NCBI GenBank assembly: GCA_016201825.1
Contig: JACQCD010000036.1
Coordinates: 1 to 45,540 of the forward strand
DNA from: Nitrospirota bacterium
GTDB lineage: Bacteria; Nitrospirota; Nitrospiria; 2-01-FULL-66-17
Direction of reading: 5' to 3'
Length of the DNA stretch: 45,540 bases
Shown: positions 12,251 through 28,135 of the stretch, piece by piece
How the letters are laid out: the number at the start of each line of letters is the position of its first letter
Numbering within the stretch: the stretch's first letter is position 1
The notes under the pieces: model-generated
The model's database searches: none
Seen by the model: the letters and a program-made list of their open reading frames with translations, nothing else
What the model was told of the DNA's origin: nothing
Position numbers and translations under genes: made by a program

Positions 12251-12921
12251 CGCGCGCTCCGGGTCGGCACGCGTTGGCACAGCGGCTCGACCATGGCGAG
12301 GATCGCCCGCTGAACCTCCTCGACCGGCCGGCCGGCATCGAAGAGACGAATGCGATTCGGCTCGCGCGCAGCGAGGGCGAGATAGCCGTCGCGCACGCGC
12401 TGGTGAAAGCCGGTGGGCTCCAGATCGAGGCGATTGGTCAAGGCCCGGCGGCCGACCCGCCGGAGTCCTTCGTCGACGGGGAGGTCGAGCAGCAGCACCG
12501 CGTCCGGGCGAAGCCCGCCGGTCGCCAGCGCGATCACCGCTTCGACCTCGTCGATCGGCAGCCCGCGGCCGTACGCCTGGTACGCCACGGTCGCTTCGGA
12601 AAAGCGGTCGCACAAGACGATCGCGCCCGATTCGAGGGCGGGGAGGATCACGTGTTCGACGTGCTCGGCGCGGCTGGCTCCGTACAGGAGCAGCTCGGCG
12701 CGGGATGACATGCCGGTGAAGCGGGGATCCAGCACGAGCTGCCGCACCGCTTCGCCGATCGGCGTGCCGCCCGGCTCGCGGGTGGTGACGACGGATACGC
12801 CGCGCTCGGCCAGCGCGCGGCCGAGGGCCGCAAGCTGAGTGGACTTCCCGCTGCCTTCCACCCCTTCAAACGTGATGAAGCGACCGGGTCGCTCGCGGGG
12901 CGATTGCGCGCCCATCGTCAT
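12247..12921 (-). CDS. tmk: Thymidylate kinase
   Basis: The 224-residue enzyme phosphorylates dTMP to dTDP. Seen in sequence: P-loop FEGVEGSGKSTQ, the DR-type motif VLCDRFSEATVAYQAYGRG, TREPGGTPIGEAVR, and LLLDLPVDEGLRRVGRR in the lid region. The ATG at 12921 overlaps the stop of the upstream ATPase gene (ATGA). A second ATG six bases in (MGAQSP) is equally compatible with family length. It sits first among the replication/translation genes after the membrane ATPase. Confidence 0.95.
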   Translation of the reverse strand: MTMGAQSPRERPGRFITFEGVEGSGKSTQLAALGRALAERGVSVVTTREPGGTPIGEAVRQLVLDPRFTGMSSRAELLLYGASRAEHVEHVILPALESGAIVLCDRFSEATVAYQAYGRGLPIDEVEAVIALATGGLRPDAVLLLDLPVDEGLRRVGRRALTNRLDLEPTGFHQRVRDGYLALAAREPNRIRLFDAGRPVEEVQRAILAMVEPLCQRVPTRSAR

Positions 12922-14732
12922 GCCGGGGCCAAGGCGATTTGGACCAAGCCGGGCGATTCGGGCGCCGGGCCGTTGGTCAACACGACGATCTGCCGGTTGG
13001 CTCCGAGCCGGCTCAGCGTGTCGAGCACGATTCGGCGGCTCTTCTGAGGATCCAGTCCGGACAGCGGCTCATCCAACAGCAGCGGGAACCCGAGCCCCGC
13101 GCGCCGCGCGGCCCATTTGCCCAGGACGACCGACAAGCGCGCTTGGAGCGCTTCTCCGTGGCTGAGCTGCTCGATGGGAACCTCGGCGCCGCCGCGTCGG
13201 CGAACCCACACCGCGTTGTCGCGGGTGATGACCGCCTGAAGACGTTCTTCCGAAAGGCGAAGCAAGCAGACGTCGATTTCTGAGGTGTGCGTATCCGGGG
13301 GGACGCCGCTCGTTGCCGTTGGCGGGGATGGGGCCGCGGACGGAGCCGGGGCGGCGTCGGAGGCATCCAAGTCGCGCGTCAAGAGACCGATCGCGTCACG
13401 GAGACTCTCGAGATCGACGTCTTCTCCCGCGTCCTGCATCAGCGCGTCGGCGCGGGTCTTCGCCGCCTGCCACTCGGCCTCGAGGGTTTCGCGCGTGCCC
13501 CCGTCGAGCAGGTTGGCTTCCTCTTGATCGAACCTCGCCTGCTCCCCGGACCATTCCAGCGCGGCCCGGCGCTTGGCTTTGAACGTGTCGGCATCGGGAC
13601 ATCCCGTTTGCGCGATCAGCGCGACCGGGGCCGCGTAGGTCTTTTTGAGGCGCTCTTCGAGGCGCGAGAGCTTTCGGGAAAGCTCGGCCCGCGCGGTCTC
13701 CAGCGATTTTTTCCGGCCGAGGCGGCGAAAGTCGAGGATCAACGACGCGACCAGCAGCGACAAGCCGATGCCGATGCCCGCGAGGCACAGGTAGCGAGTC
13801 CCTCCCCGCAGGGGAACGAACGCCGCGACGAGGAAGGAGACGCCCGTCACGCCGGCACCGACCCAGAAAAGGGGGGTCTTCAACAGGGGATTGGCGTCGG
13901 TCCCGGCAATGCGGCCGGCAAGCGCCCCCGCTTCTTCCTCCAGCGCCGCCCGTTCCTCATCGAGGGCGGGGAGCGCTTTGATGTACCCGTCGAGCAACGC
14001 ATCGAGTTCCTTCGGGCCTTGGAGAAAGGGCGCCATCTCGCCCTTGCGCCCGGACGAGGCCTCGCGCCGCGCGCGCAGAGCGTCCAACGCGGCCAAGCGA
14101 TGGCGCGCTTCCGCTTCTTTCTCCCGCGCCGCGGCCCGCTCGTCGGCGGATTGGGCCAGGCGCTCCGCCTGAGCGAGCTTCGTCCTCAACTCGGCGAGAC
14201 GTTGGACCTTTGCGGCCCGCTCATCGGCGGTCAAGGCGGCGGGGGACGCCGCCACGTTGTGGGTGAAATCGGGGACGTTGGGGACCTCGGGCTCTTCAGC
14301 CGGGTCGGCTGACGTTCTGGGCGACCACGCGGTCAGGGCGCGGACGGCGTCGAGCGACAGGCCGTCGCACTCGGGCTGGAACAGCCGGGCCAGGGTGTCG
14401 GGCTCCGCAGCCATGGGCGCAAACGCTTTCGCGTTCTGGTCCCAACGCTGGATGTGGAACGAATCTTTGGCGAAATCTCTGATCACGCGGTAGATATCTC
14501 CTCCCCGCAGTCGGACCGTGACGGCGGCCTGAGAAGAGCCGTTGGCCCCGGTGAGACCGGAACGGAGAGGCTCGGCGTCGAGGCCGAAGAGCAGGACCTG
14601 GAGACAATCAAACAGGGTGCTCTTCCCTGATCCCGTCCGGCCGTGGATGACGTTCAGGCCGGGTTTCAGCGCCAATTTGGTGACTTGGCGGAAAGATCGG
14701 AGGCCGAAGCAGGCCAGTTCGAGAATGATCAT
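12918..14732 (-). CDS. SMC/YhaN-like ATPase with a transmembrane hairpin between coiled coils
   Basis: The product is 604 residues from ATG 14732 (MIILELACFGLRSF), the point where ABC-type ATPase similarity begins; an in-frame ATG at 14810 adds an unlikely cysteine-rich leader. The N-lobe has Walker A GRTGSGKSTLFD. Two coiled-coil arms (about residues 180-270 and 365-455) flank two closely spaced hydrophobic helices (about 285-345, FWVGAGVTGVSFLVAAFV and LCLAGIGIGLSLLVASLIL). The C-lobe has signature LSHGEALQARL and Walker B FPLLLDEPLSGLD. The heads should thus be tethered to the inner membrane where SbcC/Rad50 proteins have a zinc hook. The nearest recognisable type is YhaN-like. Substrate and role are unknown; linkage to tmk-holB suggests DNA metabolism. 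Confidence 0.8.
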   Translation of the reverse strand: MIILELACFGLRSFRQVTKLALKPGLNVIHGRTGSGKSTLFDCLQVLLFGLDAEPLRSGLTGANGSSQAAVTVRLRGGDIYRVIRDFAKDSFHIQRWDQNAKAFAPMAAEPDTLARLFQPECDGLSLDAVRALTAWSPRTSADPAEEPEVPNVPDFTHNVAASPAALTADERAAKVQRLAELRTKLAQAERLAQSADERAAAREKEAEARHRLAALDALRARREASSGRKGEMAPFLQGPKELDALLDGYIKALPALDEERAALEEEAGALAGRIAGTDANPLLKTPLFWVGAGVTGVSFLVAAFVPLRGGTRYLCLAGIGIGLSLLVASLILDFRRLGRKKSLETARAELSRKLSRLEERLKKTYAAPVALIAQTGCPDADTFKAKRRAALEWSGEQARFDQEEANLLDGGTRETLEAEWQAAKTRADALMQDAGEDVDLESLRDAIGLLTRDLDASDAAPAPSAAPSPPTATSGVPPDTHTSEIDVCLLRLSEERLQAVITRDNAVWVRRRGGAEVPIEQLSHGEALQARLSVVLGKWAARRAGLGFPLLLDEPLSGLDPQKSRRIVLDTLSRLGANRQIVVLTNGPAPESPGLVQIALAPA

Positions 14733-14767
14733 CCAGTGGTCGCGGCACGCCCTAGACAGCGAAGCGA

Positions 14768-14796
14768 ATCCTACGTGACTCCGTTTGAAAATGCAA
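14768..14796 (-). promoter_or_regulatory. Candidate sigma-70 promoter of the ATPase-tmk-holB-ricT-metG operon
   Basis: On the minus strand TTGCAT (14796-14791), a 17-bp spacer and TAGGAT (14773-14768) are found, giving a start near 14760, about 28 bases before the ATG at 14732. It lies in the only noncoding gap upstream of this tightly coupled operon and is divergent from the promoter at 14842. Confidence 0.5.
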
Positions 14797-14841
14797 ATAG
14801 ATGCCGACACGGTTTTTCCGAGCTCGGAAACACGATAATCC

Positions 14842-21132: not shown

Positions 21133-21420
21133 ATGGAGATCACGCGATCACAGGTCGAGCACGTGGCGAAACTCGCGCGGTTGGCGATTGGGGAGGACGA
21201 GAAGGCCCTCTTCGCGCGCCAGCTCTCCGCGATCTTGACCTACGTCGAAACGCTCAACCGTCTGGACACGTCGAGCGTGGAGCCGACGTCCCACGTCATT
21301 CCCCTCCAGAATGTGTTCCGGGAGGACGAGGTGAAACCGTCGCTGTCCCGCGATCAGGCGCTGGCCAACGCGCCGGATATTGATGGGGGCTGTTTTCGGG
21401 TGCCGAAGATCATCGAATAA
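21133..21420 (+). CDS. gatC: Asp/Glu-tRNA amidotransferase subunit C
   Basis: The 95-residue GatC bridges GatA and GatB in the complex that converts Glu-tRNA(Gln) and Asp-tRNA(Asn) to their amide forms. The ATG at 21133 is chosen by alignment with the family ([19 protein letters not shown]); the open frame upstream lies inside the helicase gene. Conserved features are the amphipathic first helix, [25 protein letters not shown], and the [10 protein letters not shown] segment. It is separated from gatA by panD and cca, a layout seen in several phyla. Confidence 0.95.
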
Positions 21421-23420: not shown

Positions 23421-24887
23421 GTGACGACCGAACTTTGGACGCTGACGATCCACGAGGCCCACGCGCTGCTCAAGGCCCGCACGATCAGTGCGCGGGAACT
23501 GTTGGACGCGGTGGAGACGCGGGTCGCGGCGGTGGAGGGGGAGATTCACGCCTACCTGACCCTCTGCCGGGACGCCGCGCGCGCGCAAGCCGATGCCGCG
23601 GATCGCCGCCTGCGAAGTGGCAAAGACCTCTCGCCGCTGACCGGCATCCCGATTGCGCTCAAGGACAACCTCTGCACGACGGGCGTCAAGACGACCTGTG
23701 CGTCGAAGATTCTGGAAGGGTTTGTCCCGCCCTACGATGCCACGGTGGTCGAGCGCCTGCGCGGGCAGGGGGCGGTCTTTGTCGGGAAGACCAATATGGA
23801 TGAGTTCGCGATGGGATCGTCCACCGAGAATTCGGCGTTCGGCGGGACGAAGAATCCCTGGGATCGCGCGCGCATTCCCGGGGGATCGAGCGGCGGGTCG
23901 GCGTCGGCCGTGGCGGCCGACGAGTGCACGGCCGCGTTGGGGTCCGACACCGGCGGCTCGATCCGCCAGCCTGCGGCGTGCTGCGGGATCGTCGGCTTGA
24001 AACCGACCTACGGTCGCGTGTCGCGCTATGGCCTGATGGCGTTCGCCTCGTCGCTCGACCAGATCGGGCCGTTGACGAAGGACGTGACCGATTGCGCGTG
24101 GATGCTGAACGCGATCGCCGGGCACGACTCGAGCGATTCGACGTCGGCCGCCCTGCCGTGCCCCGATTTTTCCTCGGGCTTGGGACGCGGGGTGCGGGGG
24201 CTGCGGGTCGGAGTCCCGAAGGAGTACTTCATTCCGGGAATGGATTGGTCGGTGGAGGAGGCGGTCAAGGCCGCGATCGCCGTGCTGGAACGCGAGGGCG
24301 CGGTCCCGGTCGAGGTGTCGCTGCCGCATACCGAGTACGCCGTGGCCGTCTACTATCTGCTCGCCACGGCCGAGGCCAGCTCGAATCTCGCGCGGTATGA
24401 CGGCATCCGGTACGGCCATCGCGCCAAGGCGCCGGCGGATCTCTTCGACCTCTACGCCAGGAGTCGGGCGGAGGGATTCGGCCCCGAGGTGAAGCGCCGG
24501 ATCATGCTGGGGACGTACGCGCTCTCGTCGGGCTATTATGACGCCTACTACGCCAAGGCCCAGCACGTGAGGACGCTGATCGCGCAAGATTTCCGCCGCG
24601 CCTTCGAACAGGTCGACGTGATCGCGACCCCGACCGCGCCGACGCCGGCGTTTCGACTCGGGGAGAAGACCCAAGACCCCTTGCAGATGTATCTGTCCGA
24701 CATCTTCACGATCTCGGTCAATCTCGCGGGCGTCCCCGCGCTGTCGATGCCGTGCGGGTTCTCACCCGACGGGTTGCCGATCGGGCTGCAACTCATCGGC
24801 AAGACGTTCGATGAAGAGACCGTGCTGCGCGCGGCGTTCGCGTACGAGCAGGCGACCGAGTGGAAGACGAGGAAGCCGGAGTTCTGA
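23421..24887 (+). CDS. gatA: Asp/Glu-tRNA amidotransferase subunit A (amidase)
   Basis: This 488-residue glutaminase subunit releases ammonia from glutamine for the GatB kinase/transamidase. It carries the amidase-signature Ser-cisSer-Lys triad: the lysine in IALKDNLCT and serines in [14 protein letters not shown] and [16 protein letters not shown]. The start is GTG 23421 ([16 protein letters not shown]...), preceded by GAGAGG. In most genomes with this gene order gatB follows directly; here 1784 bp carrying two foreign-looking genes separate gatA from gatB. Confidence 0.96.
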
Positions 24888-24903: not shown

Positions 24904-26067
24904 ATGATCAAGCAGCTTAAGATTAGAGGATATAAGAGTCTCAAGGAACTCGATCTCGAACTAGGGCCGCTCACGGCTTTGATAGGCCCCAATGCCGGAG
25001 GGAAGACCAATCTTTTAGACTTCTTTGCATTTCTGTCCGAGGCTGTGAACGAAAAAATGCAGAAGGCCGTGCCGGACCGGGGGGGATTTCAATCGCTCGT
25101 TTTCGCTGGTGGAGCAGACCGGATCTCGTGGGATCTAGAGTTCGGACCAGTTGGAACACTGGCGTTCGAGGAAAGCGGAATTCGTTATAAAGTGGAACTC
25201 AAAGGTATCCGTCATATGCACACGATCGAATCTGAAGAGCTGACCAAGGACTCGATGCCCTTAGTCACCGCGCGCAAAGGGAAGGCCACCTTTAGGAGAA
25301 TGTCACATCAGGCCTTGAAGAATCTCGATACCACCCCCGAAATGGATTTGATGGACTCTGAGCTTTCTATCGCTCAGGTGAGGGACCCCCAAGCCTATCC
25401 GACACTCGATAGAGTTCGCACCTATATCGCATCATGGACGACCTACGGCAATTTTGACACCAGCATAAATGCGCCTATTCGGCAGGCCCAGTTCGCGGGT
25501 CCTGACAACAGGCTCCTTCCTGACGGAAGTAACCTGACAACGGTCCTTTATCATCTCCGGAATCACTCCGAATATCGAACTGAATATAGTGAAATCTTAG
25601 AGACGTTACGCGTGGCCTATCCACACTTTGAAGAATTAAACTTTCCGGCAGAATCCCAAGGAAAAATTATCCTCCATTGGAAGAGTAAACATTTTAAGCG
25701 GAGTTTTTCTTCGACATTTCTTTCCGATGGGACTCTTCGATTCCTCTGTCTTGTGACGATATTGCTTTCGCCGGACCCACCACCTTTGATCTGCATCGAT
25801 GAGCCTGAGCTGGGATTACACCCGTCCCTTCTTCATCTCATTGCGGATCTTTTGAAGAACGCCGCTGTGCGCACCCAGCTCGTTGTGGCCACCCATAGCC
25901 CGCAGTTAGTAAGTTGTATTGACGCAAAGCAGGTGGCCGTTGTCGAATCCGAACAAGTTGCCACGACGATCAAACGGCTAGCCGACAGACCAGAACTTGA
26001 AAAATGGTTGAAGGATTTCAGCCTTGGTGAGTTGTGGACCATGGGTGAGTTGGGTGGACGTCCTTGA
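24904..26067 (+). CDS. AAA-family (SMC/OLD-like) ATPase, first gene of a candidate defence pair
   Basis: The product is 387 residues. A Walker A P-loop, LIGPNAGGKTN, begins at residue 26 after the opening strand IKQLKIRGYKSLKEL typical of AAA_21/AAA_15 proteins. There is a D-rich middle with no recognised domain. The C-lobe contains the signature-like FLSDGTLRFLCL, Walker B LICIDEPELGLHPSLL, and the His-switch VVATHSPQLV. No zinc hook or nuclease domain is visible. Proteins of this type act with a partner effector in systems such as PARIS, AbiL and Septu. The downstream DUF4276 gene overlaps by a TTGA. Base composition is visibly AT-richer than the flanking gat genes (one 60-base line counted at 23 G+C), a sign of acquisition. 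Confidence 0.88.
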   Translation: MIKQLKIRGYKSLKELDLELGPLTALIGPNAGGKTNLLDFFAFLSEAVNEKMQKAVPDRGGFQSLVFAGGADRISWDLEFGPVGTLAFEESGIRYKVELKGIRHMHTIESEELTKDSMPLVTARKGKATFRRMSHQALKNLDTTPEMDLMDSELSIAQVRDPQAYPTLDRVRTYIASWTTYGNFDTSINAPIRQAQFAGPDNRLLPDGSNLTTVLYHLRNHSEYRTEYSEILETLRVAYPHFEELNFPAESQGKIILHWKSKHFKRSFSSTFLSDGTLRFLCLVTILLSPDPPPLICIDEPELGLHPSLLHLIADLLKNAAVRTQLVVATHSPQLVSCIDAKQVAVVESEQVATTIKRLADRPELEKWLKDFSLGELWTMGELGGRP

Positions 26068-26675
26068 AGGTCGTTCTTTATTGTGAAGGCGAGTCAGAGA
26101 TGCGCATGGTGGACGCAATGTTGAGGCCATTTCTCATAAATTCAGGCTGGCGAGGCCGTTTACATCCCAAAAACATGGAGAACGGTGGAGCGTTTCTTCG
26201 CAAGATCGGTCGGGTGGTTGAGAATACGTTGAGCCTCGGTGAGGCAGACCGTGTATTCGGCCTGATGGATCTGTATGGAACGGTAATCCAATATCCCGCA
26301 GGCCTTCACGTACCGGAAGAGAGGGCGGAATATCTACGAAACCACCTGAAGCGCTTGGTTCCGGAAACTTATCGCCATCATTTTCATCCCCATGTGGCTG
26401 TTCACGAGCTTGAGGCGTGGCTTCTAGCGGATGAGAGCGGTCTGACAGATCGCCTCGGACATTCGGTTCCTCCGTGGCCTAATCCGGAGAATGTCAATTT
26501 TGACAAACCTCCTGCTGACCATGTGAACGAACTATTCCGAAGACATCTGAAAATGGCGTATGGAAAAGCTGTAGACGGAGGTCGGCTCTTTGGGAAGATC
26601 AATCCCAACATCGTGATGAACAAGTGCCCTCACTTCAAGTCGTTCATTGACGACCTTATGACTGCGACGTCATGA
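26064..26675 (+). CDS. DUF4276 (TOPRIM-like) protein, second gene of the candidate defence pair
   Basis: The product is 203 residues from TTG 26064, overlapping the ATPase stop (TTGA). Sequence features match DUF4276: an opening [13 protein letters not shown] with the TOPRIM-type Glu (E8), FGLMDLYGT (D69), and the family's [11 protein letters not shown] block (H114, E115, E117). A conserved glutamate followed by Asp-x-Tyr-Gly is the arrangement of a TOPRIM metal site, so a nuclease-like effector role is plausible but inferred. ATPase+DUF4276 pairs are known in defence islands, comparable in layout to PARIS (DUF4435) and AbiL (RloB-like). Its stop overlaps the gatB ATG (ATGA), so translation of gatB is coupled to this cassette. 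Confidence 0.82.
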
Positions 26676-28131
26676 CAACCACCTCTTCTACCCGAGCTGC
26701 CTACGAGACCATCATCGGGCTGGAGGTCCACGCGCAACTCTTGACGCGATCCAAGATGTTCTGCGGGTGCGCGGCGGCGTTCGGCGCCGCGCCGAACACG
26801 CAGGTGTGCCCCATCTGTCTCGGCATGCCGGGCGTCCTGCCCGTGGTCAACAAGCGGGCGGTGGAGTTTGCCATTCGACTGGGGTTGGCGATGCACTCCC
26901 GGATCGCGACGTCGAGTCGCTTCGCCCGCAAGAATTATTTTTACCCCGATCTCCCCAAGGGGTATCAGATCTCGCAGTACGAGCTGCCGCTGTGCGAGGG
27001 CGGGTGGCTCGACATCGCGGTGGACGAGCAGGCGAAGCGGATCCGCCTGACCCGCGCCCACCTCGAGGAGGATGCCGGGAAGAACCTGCACGACATGGGA
27101 GACGGCGCGAGCCACGTCGACCTGAATCGGGCCGGCACGCCGCTGTTGGAGATCGTCAGCGAGCCGGATCTGCGCTCCTCGGACGAGGCGGTGGCGTACT
27201 TAAAGGCGTTGCGCGAGCTGGTCGTGTATCTCGGCATCTGCGACGGCAATATGGAGGAGGGGAGCTTTCGCTGCGACGCCAACGTGTCGATCCGTCCGCG
27301 CGGAAGCGAGCGGTTCGAGACGCGAGTGGAGTTGAAGAACATCAACTCGTTCCGCTACGTCAAGCGCGCGATCGAGTACGAGGTCGAGCGCCAGATCGGC
27401 GTGGTCGAGGACGGCGGGCGCATCGTGCAGGAGACGCGGCTGTTCGACCCGCAGCGGGGGGTAAGCGTGTCGATGCGCTCCAAGGAAGCGGCGCACGATT
27501 ACCGGTATTTCCCCGACCCCGATCTGGTGCCCATCGCGGCGCCCGAGACCTGGATCGCCGAGATTCGGGCCGCGCTCCCCGAACTGCCCGAGGCCAAGCG
27601 CGCGCGGTTCGTGAGCGAGTATGGGATTGTGCCGTACGACGCGACCGTGTTGACCGGGAGCCGGGCGCTGGCGGATTATTTCGAGGCCGCCATCCGCCAC
27701 GGCGCGCCGCCGAAGACCGCGGCGAATTGGATCATGAGCGAGCTCCTCGCGCAGCTCAATGCCGAGGGGGCCGAGATCGAATCCTGTCGCGTCACGCCCA
27801 AGGCGCTGGCCGCGCTCTTTGCGTTGGTCGACGCGGGGACGATCAGCGGCAAGATCGCGAAGACCGTCTTCGAAGAGATGTACCGGACCGGCGCCGAGCC
27901 GGACGCGGTGGTGGCCGCCAAGGGTCTCGTGCAGGTCAGCGACGTGGATGCGCTCGTCGCGGTGATCGACCGGGTCATCGCCGACTCGCCCAAGGAACTC
28001 GCGCAATACCTATCCGGGAAGGACAAGCTCTTCGGCTTCTTTGTGGGCCAAGTGATGAAGCGCACCGAAGGCAAGGCCAACCCCGGGAAGGTGAACGAGT
28101 TGCTCAAGGCGCGACTGGGCGCCCCGGGCCC

Positions 28132-28135
<4 letters not shown>
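26672..28135 (+). CDS. gatB: Asp/Glu-tRNA amidotransferase subunit B
   Basis: The 487-residue GatB activates the side chain of misacylated Glu-tRNA(Gln)/Asp-tRNA(Asn) with ATP and transfers ammonia from GatA. Conserved features: [23 protein letters not shown] with zinc cysteines, [48 protein letters not shown], and the C-terminal YqeY-like tail domain (about 335-487, with [20 protein letters not shown]). The ATG at 26672 overlaps the preceding DUF4276 stop, and the stop overlaps the cytochrome gene start. The gat operon therefore reads C-panD-cca-A-[cassette]-B. Confidence 0.97.

Follow-up and report, generated by a model that had tools for sequence, protein, structure and literature searches.

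An ATPase–DUF4276 pair of the candidate kind HEC-01, with a predicted Toprim-like partner, between gatA and gatB of a Nitrospirota genome

Several described systems place an ATPase and a Toprim-type effector next to each other or in one chain. PARIS, which has been proposed as a class 4 OLD, consists of the AriA ATPase and the DUF4435 effector AriB; the ATPase holds AriB until a phage trigger releases it (PMC12409363, PMC9122126), and deletion of either gene is not toxic (PMC9122126). AbiL likewise has two genes, the AbiLi ATPase and the RloB-like AbiLii; a relationship between RloB and OLD-Toprim domains has been described (PMC10440598). For pairs of AAA and TOPRIM_OLD proteins, experiments have established that the ATPase neutralises the toxin (PMC10440598). 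OLD nucleases of classes 1 to 3 and GajA (Gabija) carry both parts on a single polypeptide; in the OLD of Burkholderia pseudomallei (BpOLD), metal is bound by E400, E404, D455, D457, T506 and E508 with assistance from K562, and the roles of E400, E404, D455, E508 and K562 were tested by mutation (PMC6755086). HEC stands for Hma-embedded candidate, a designation from a guilt-by-embedding study (Payne et al., 2024, preprint 10.1101/2024.01.29.577857) that we cite by way of PMC12988326; the latter reports several HECs, HEC-06 among them, as active.

Here we compare with these systems a pair of genes found in a stretch of 45,540 nucleotides (the window), which is one whole contig of a Nitrospirota draft genome (2.8 Mb, 89% complete). 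The features are collected in Table 1. Upstream of the pair, which we call the cassette, gatC, a panD-like gene, a cca-like gene and gatA form one run of genes (the panD-like and cca-like names come from reading the ORF translations). The ORF coordinates bear out the initial annotation in placing an ATPase gene and a DUF4276 gene between gatA and gatB. Its description of tight junctions holds for the TTGA and ATGA overlaps but not for the gap after gatA, which was given as 17 bp: 16 bp lie between the gatA stop codon and the ATPase start. Overlaps of 4 nt between the ATPase and DUF4276 genes are common among homologous pairs (many cases), and the TTG start of the DUF4276 gene is supported by the homologous proteins, which start a few residues before a conserved glutamate, E8.

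Table 1. Position of the cassette and its host genes in the window
Feature	Coordinates	Strand	Basis
gatC	21139..21417 (match coordinates)	+	NCBIfam TIGR00135 match over cut-off
gatA, left host gene	23421..24887	+	ORF; 82-83% identity to two nearest relatives
ATPase (HEC-01A), 387 aa, ATG start	24904..26067	+	ORF; Pfam AAA_21 4e-35; PADLOC HEC-01A 1.7e-88
DUF4276 protein (HEC-01B), 203 aa, TTG start	26064..26675	+	Pfam PF14103 2e-26; PADLOC HEC-01B 8.7e-22
TTGA overlap, ATPase stop / DUF4276 start	26064..26067	+	sequence
ATGA overlap, DUF4276 stop / gatB start	26672..26675	+	sequence
gatB, right host gene	26672..28135	+	81-88% identity to nearest relatives

The HEC-01A and HEC-01B models (PADLOC-DB 2.0.0) cover nearly the full length of the two proteins, which are adjacent and in the same order, and the pair is therefore of an already known candidate kind. 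Some homologues of the window pair sit inside Hma-like operons, whereas the window copy stands alone in a tRNA-amidation operon rather than in a defence operon. PARIS and AbiL, initially proposed as the nearest layouts, are thus analogues, and the nearest filing of the pair is HEC-01. With PARIS it shares the division of ATPase and Toprim effector into separate genes, and AriA profiles match the window ATPase; the effector, however, is a DUF4276 protein with no match to DUF4435 in Pfam. With AbiL it shares the two-gene layout of an AAA protein and an OLD-Toprim-like protein. The AbiLi model matches the window ATPase at 1.3e-28, and by predicted fold the DUF4276 protein closely resembles an RloB-like protein, although Pfam finds no RloB family match in the DUF4276 sequence, which sets the pair apart from AbiL and RloAB. 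The OLD nucleases and GajA offer a parallel in fold and residues (among solved sequences the ATPase is nearest to TsOLD, the DUF4276 fold is nearest to the Toprim region of BpOLD, and the acidic and lysine residues run in parallel), but what they hold in one polypeptide is divided here between two ORFs.

The assignment of the DUF4276 protein comes from its predicted structure. An AlphaFold2 model built on a 12-sequence alignment (pLDDT 89.2, pTM 0.83) has the order b1-a1-b2-a2-b3-a3-b4, an alternation of strands and helices that is the Toprim order of elements; E8 directly follows b1, D69 sits where b3 ends and E117 comes after b4. The PDB entry that the model matches best is 6nk8, the C-terminal part of BpOLD with its Toprim (Foldseek TM 0.51/0.52, probability 1.00, with an E-value of only 1.9e-3); the remaining PDB matches among those listed reach TM values of at most 0.38 by query length. 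In the comparison with viral models, an RloB-like protein is the only match among those listed with a TM above 0.5 (0.54/0.52). Sequence and profile searches of PDB chains with the DUF4276 protein returned no relative and no Toprim chain, so the Toprim assignment rests on the fold and the residues.

What, then, do the residues say? Over 26 diverse DUF4276 sequences, E8, E/D12, D69 and E117 are conserved in all 26 and K168 in 25; of the E8/D69 and HELEAWLL signature noted at the outset, E8, D69 and the E117 of HELEAWLL are invariant. The invariant Glu that Toprim domains have after beta-1 is present as E8. The DxD motif after beta-3 is incomplete: among the 26 sequences, 22 have Tyr at position 71 and 3 have Glu, and we therefore use the label 'Toprim-like', with D-x-Y. 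Matched by order and topology rather than by superposed coordinates, E8, E/D12, D69, E117 and K168 would be paralleling E400, E404, D455, E508 and K562 of BpOLD, with D457 replaced by Tyr or Glu. The expectation of a TOPRIM-like fold is in this way upheld by the element order, by 6nk8 as top match and by the conserved acidic and lysine set, a parallel to the two-metal site of OLD, and falls short at the second Asp of DxD. Taken together, the model suggests that the DUF4276 protein is an OLD-type, Toprim-like nuclease.

In the ATPase all nucleotide-binding motifs are intact: Walker A is GPNAGGKT, the ABC-like signature LSDGTLRF, Walker B with the D-loop CIDEPELGLHP and the H-switch ATHS. The two Walker motifs and the switch had been read from the sequence at the outset. 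The protein also has a conserved C-terminal tail. Its AlphaFold2 model (pLDDT 86.6) matches PtuA (Septu, retrons), SMC heads and TsOLD in the PDB, and TsOLD is also its best solved relative by profile.

We now turn to how the cassette relates to its surroundings. It had been described as AT-richer than its neighbours, and this is confirmed by a GC content of 0.504 against 0.639 for the window; GC3 of the two cassette genes is 0.54 and 0.53, compared with 0.60-0.89 in the other genes, and in a comparison within the window the two have the lowest codon-usage scores among 22 genes. The gatA-gatB junction of close relatives is empty: the spacer is 96 bp in a genome of the same genus and 156 bp in one of the same family, non-coding in both. 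The same-genus genome is only 65% complete, yet its junction is intact and empty. A single-protein search with this DUF4276 protein gave no matches in these two genomes or in any of 57 relatives; distant DUF4276 proteins occur elsewhere in the genome in a few members of the class. The nearest relatives are thus found without the pair, its composition differs from that of the host genes, and the comparison fits the clean insertion suggested initially. From the empty sites in two relatives, the 50% GC in a 64% GC contig and the outlying codon usage we conclude that the cassette is an insertion, and the simplest reading is that it was gained in the present lineage rather than lost in both relatives. 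A transposon-like insertion was considered and rejected because the cassette ends have no direct or inverted repeats of at least 6 bases and no target duplication. The empty sites in the two nearest relatives carry C-rich/G-rich inverted repeats (CCCCCCATCCCCCC...GGGGGG), which are absent from the window junction.

Elsewhere in the class, further families have other genes between gatA and gatB, and the spacer is therefore a place that tolerates insertion; it seems to be a recurrent insertion place. Seven such spacers, in several families, hold a gamma-glutamylcyclotransferase-like ORF (MIYFAYGSNMD...), and four in another family hold a membrane protein of about 150 aa. For the pair itself, no gatA or gatB was found near 37 other loci, and we reject a recurrent association with gatAB. 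The placement is striking, but it is one case so far and not a separate kind.

No match over the curated cut-off to GlnRS or AsnRS was found in this genome (of which about 11% is missing); GatCAB is therefore probably essential, being needed, probably, for Gln-tRNA and Asn-tRNA. In the same-family genome AGGAGG stands ahead of the gatB start, and in the window the end of the DUF4276 gene precedes gatB without a clear Shine-Dalgarno sequence. Judging from these sequences, translation of gatB is likely coupled to the DUF4276 gene. The cassette would have inserted cleanly between gatA and gatB and would use the transcription of the gat operon, and ribosomes terminating at the stop of the DUF4276 gene would probably reinitiate to translate gatB. 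With empty sites in its kin, the locus cleanly illustrates the insertion of a candidate defence cassette into an operon that is probably essential.

How general is the pair? DUF4276 occurs in about one in seven sampled genomes of the phylum (54/396), on plasmids and on viral contigs, and no mention of it was found in the literature searched. Thirty DUF4276 loci of the phylum were fetched; setting aside the window and one locus cut by a contig end leaves 28 assessable, and in 27 of them a homologous ATPase adjoins DUF4276. The ATPase is also present in all 20 larger DUF4276 regions. Used as bait on named genomes, the ATPase gives 11 best hits, all adjoined by a DUF4276 match (weak in L070 and L073, frame-shifted in L066), from Myxococcota, Pseudomonadota, Lentisphaerota, Bacteroidota, Acidobacteriota, Chloroflexota, Campylobacterota and Cyanobacteriota; these came from an alignment query, a single-sequence query of the named genomes having given no matches. 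Two viral contigs carry the pair, and no fused ORF was found among the fetched loci. The pairing is near-obligate. In the ATPase tree, phyla, plasmids and viral contigs are intermixed, which points to horizontal spread. Among plasmid records, 217 have ATPase matches, which we rejected as a count of pairs: in the one enterobacterial case looked at, the ATPase is split and DUF4276 is missing (a HEC-01A-like ATPase on a conjugative plasmid, L162 5001-6101), and since most of the 217 come from such enterobacterial genera, the number probably overstates complete pairs.

The company kept by the homologues varies. One copy, on an Ideonella plasmid, is flanked by a helicase and methyltransferase on one side and by an Mrr gene on the other; another, on a plasmid of Aeromonas, has an SNF2 gene and a methyltransferase as its neighbours; a third is next to VapBC on a small plasmid of Acinetobacter. 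Pairs in the window's own phylum are mostly solitary, beside ordinary genes such as hisD (by Pfam), radA and an aminotransferase (by eye). Restriction-modification genes appear a few times in 100 pair neighbours versus none in 100 controls of the same phylum, in a crude test in which length alone defined the ORFs and families, not distinct genes, were tallied. Defence genes are thus slightly commoner near pairs than in control stretches, a weak signal: of the two things that a search of neighbours was expected to bring out, the pairing recurs, but enrichment of defence genes in the phylum is weak. Around the window copy no other recognised defence genes were found, and at this locus it is not embedded in an Hma or other defence operon.

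On balance, the interpretation as a candidate defence pair is supported, and we think it probable that the cassette is a solitary, horizontally acquired copy of candidate HEC-01, most likely a split OLD-type nuclease that blocks phage; the defence role, nuclease activity, substrate, trigger and coupling are what we infer from comparison. The ATPase would be an ATP-bound sensor or scaffold that senses infection, and the DUF4276 protein a Toprim-fold, metal-dependent nuclease kept inactive or licensed by the ATPase. When a phage infects, this nuclease would cut nucleic acid, either DNA as in OLD and Gabija or tRNA as in PARIS, and phage growth would be blocked, probably with harm to the host cell. 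What is added here is the Toprim-like assignment with named residues together with the demonstrated empty sites; with evidence for a Toprim-like effector in a split OLD-type pair, HEC-01 acquires a mechanism that can be tested at these residues. A more specific version, in which the cassette persists by sitting ahead of the start of the essential gatB and carrying its translation, and in which the effector cuts tRNA like AriB, strikes us as a long shot; if true, a defence that targets tRNA would be linked to an operon for tRNA charging.

Three other accounts of the cassette deserve weighing. It could behave as a toxin-antitoxin-like addiction module, with a toxic Toprim DUF4276 protein neutralised by the ATPase, kept by the harm of its loss and by coupling to gatB, and with phage defence secondary or absent. 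AAA-neutralised TOPRIM_OLD toxins are experimentally known (PMC10440598), the tight overlap with the ATPase gene first suits such a module, and so do the solitary copies beside ordinary genes and the one beside VapBC on a small plasmid. We nevertheless hold this account to be rather unlikely, given that the PARIS genes can be deleted singly without toxicity (PMC9122126) and that homologous pairs on the Ideonella and Aeromonas plasmids lie inside restriction-type operons.

A housekeeping role, in which an OLD-like ATPase and a Toprim RNase were co-opted into the gatC-panD-cca-gatA-gatB run, for instance for tRNA quality control, would make sense of the cca-like and gatCAB genes in the same run. 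The Toprim RNases M5 and AriB act on structured RNA (PMC12409363), and the archaeal OLD-class ATPase Cran1 is reported to have a role in the cell cycle. Such a role is nonetheless very doubtful in view of the empty site in the same-genus and same-family genomes, a protein unmatched in 57 relatives, the lack of gatA or gatB near the 37 other loci and the foreign composition of the cassette. Equally improbable, in our estimate, is cargo without present function, be it a recent insertion on its way to decay or a join made in assembly. Only one draft genome (89% complete) carries the cassette here, and another member of the class has a homologous DUF4276 gene that is already broken (L057, G051:C92:28715-29358, where a stop codon interrupts DUF4276 in a decayed pair and the ATPase is open). 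Against this account, neither ORF is disrupted, every conserved motif is present and the overlaps are exact; gatA and gatB, which share a contig, also have their matches in the same relatives, at 81-88%.

Further ATPase genes were seen at two places. In the cyanobacterial genome named Paraprochloron, two HEC-01A-like ATPases lie on the minus strand beside the divergent pair (L070, 1649-3091 and 3886-5061). Within the window, an ORF of 630 aa lies at 12918-14810 on the minus strand; its N-terminus is of the AAA_23/SMC type, and its matches to the mad3 and LmuB profiles are weak.
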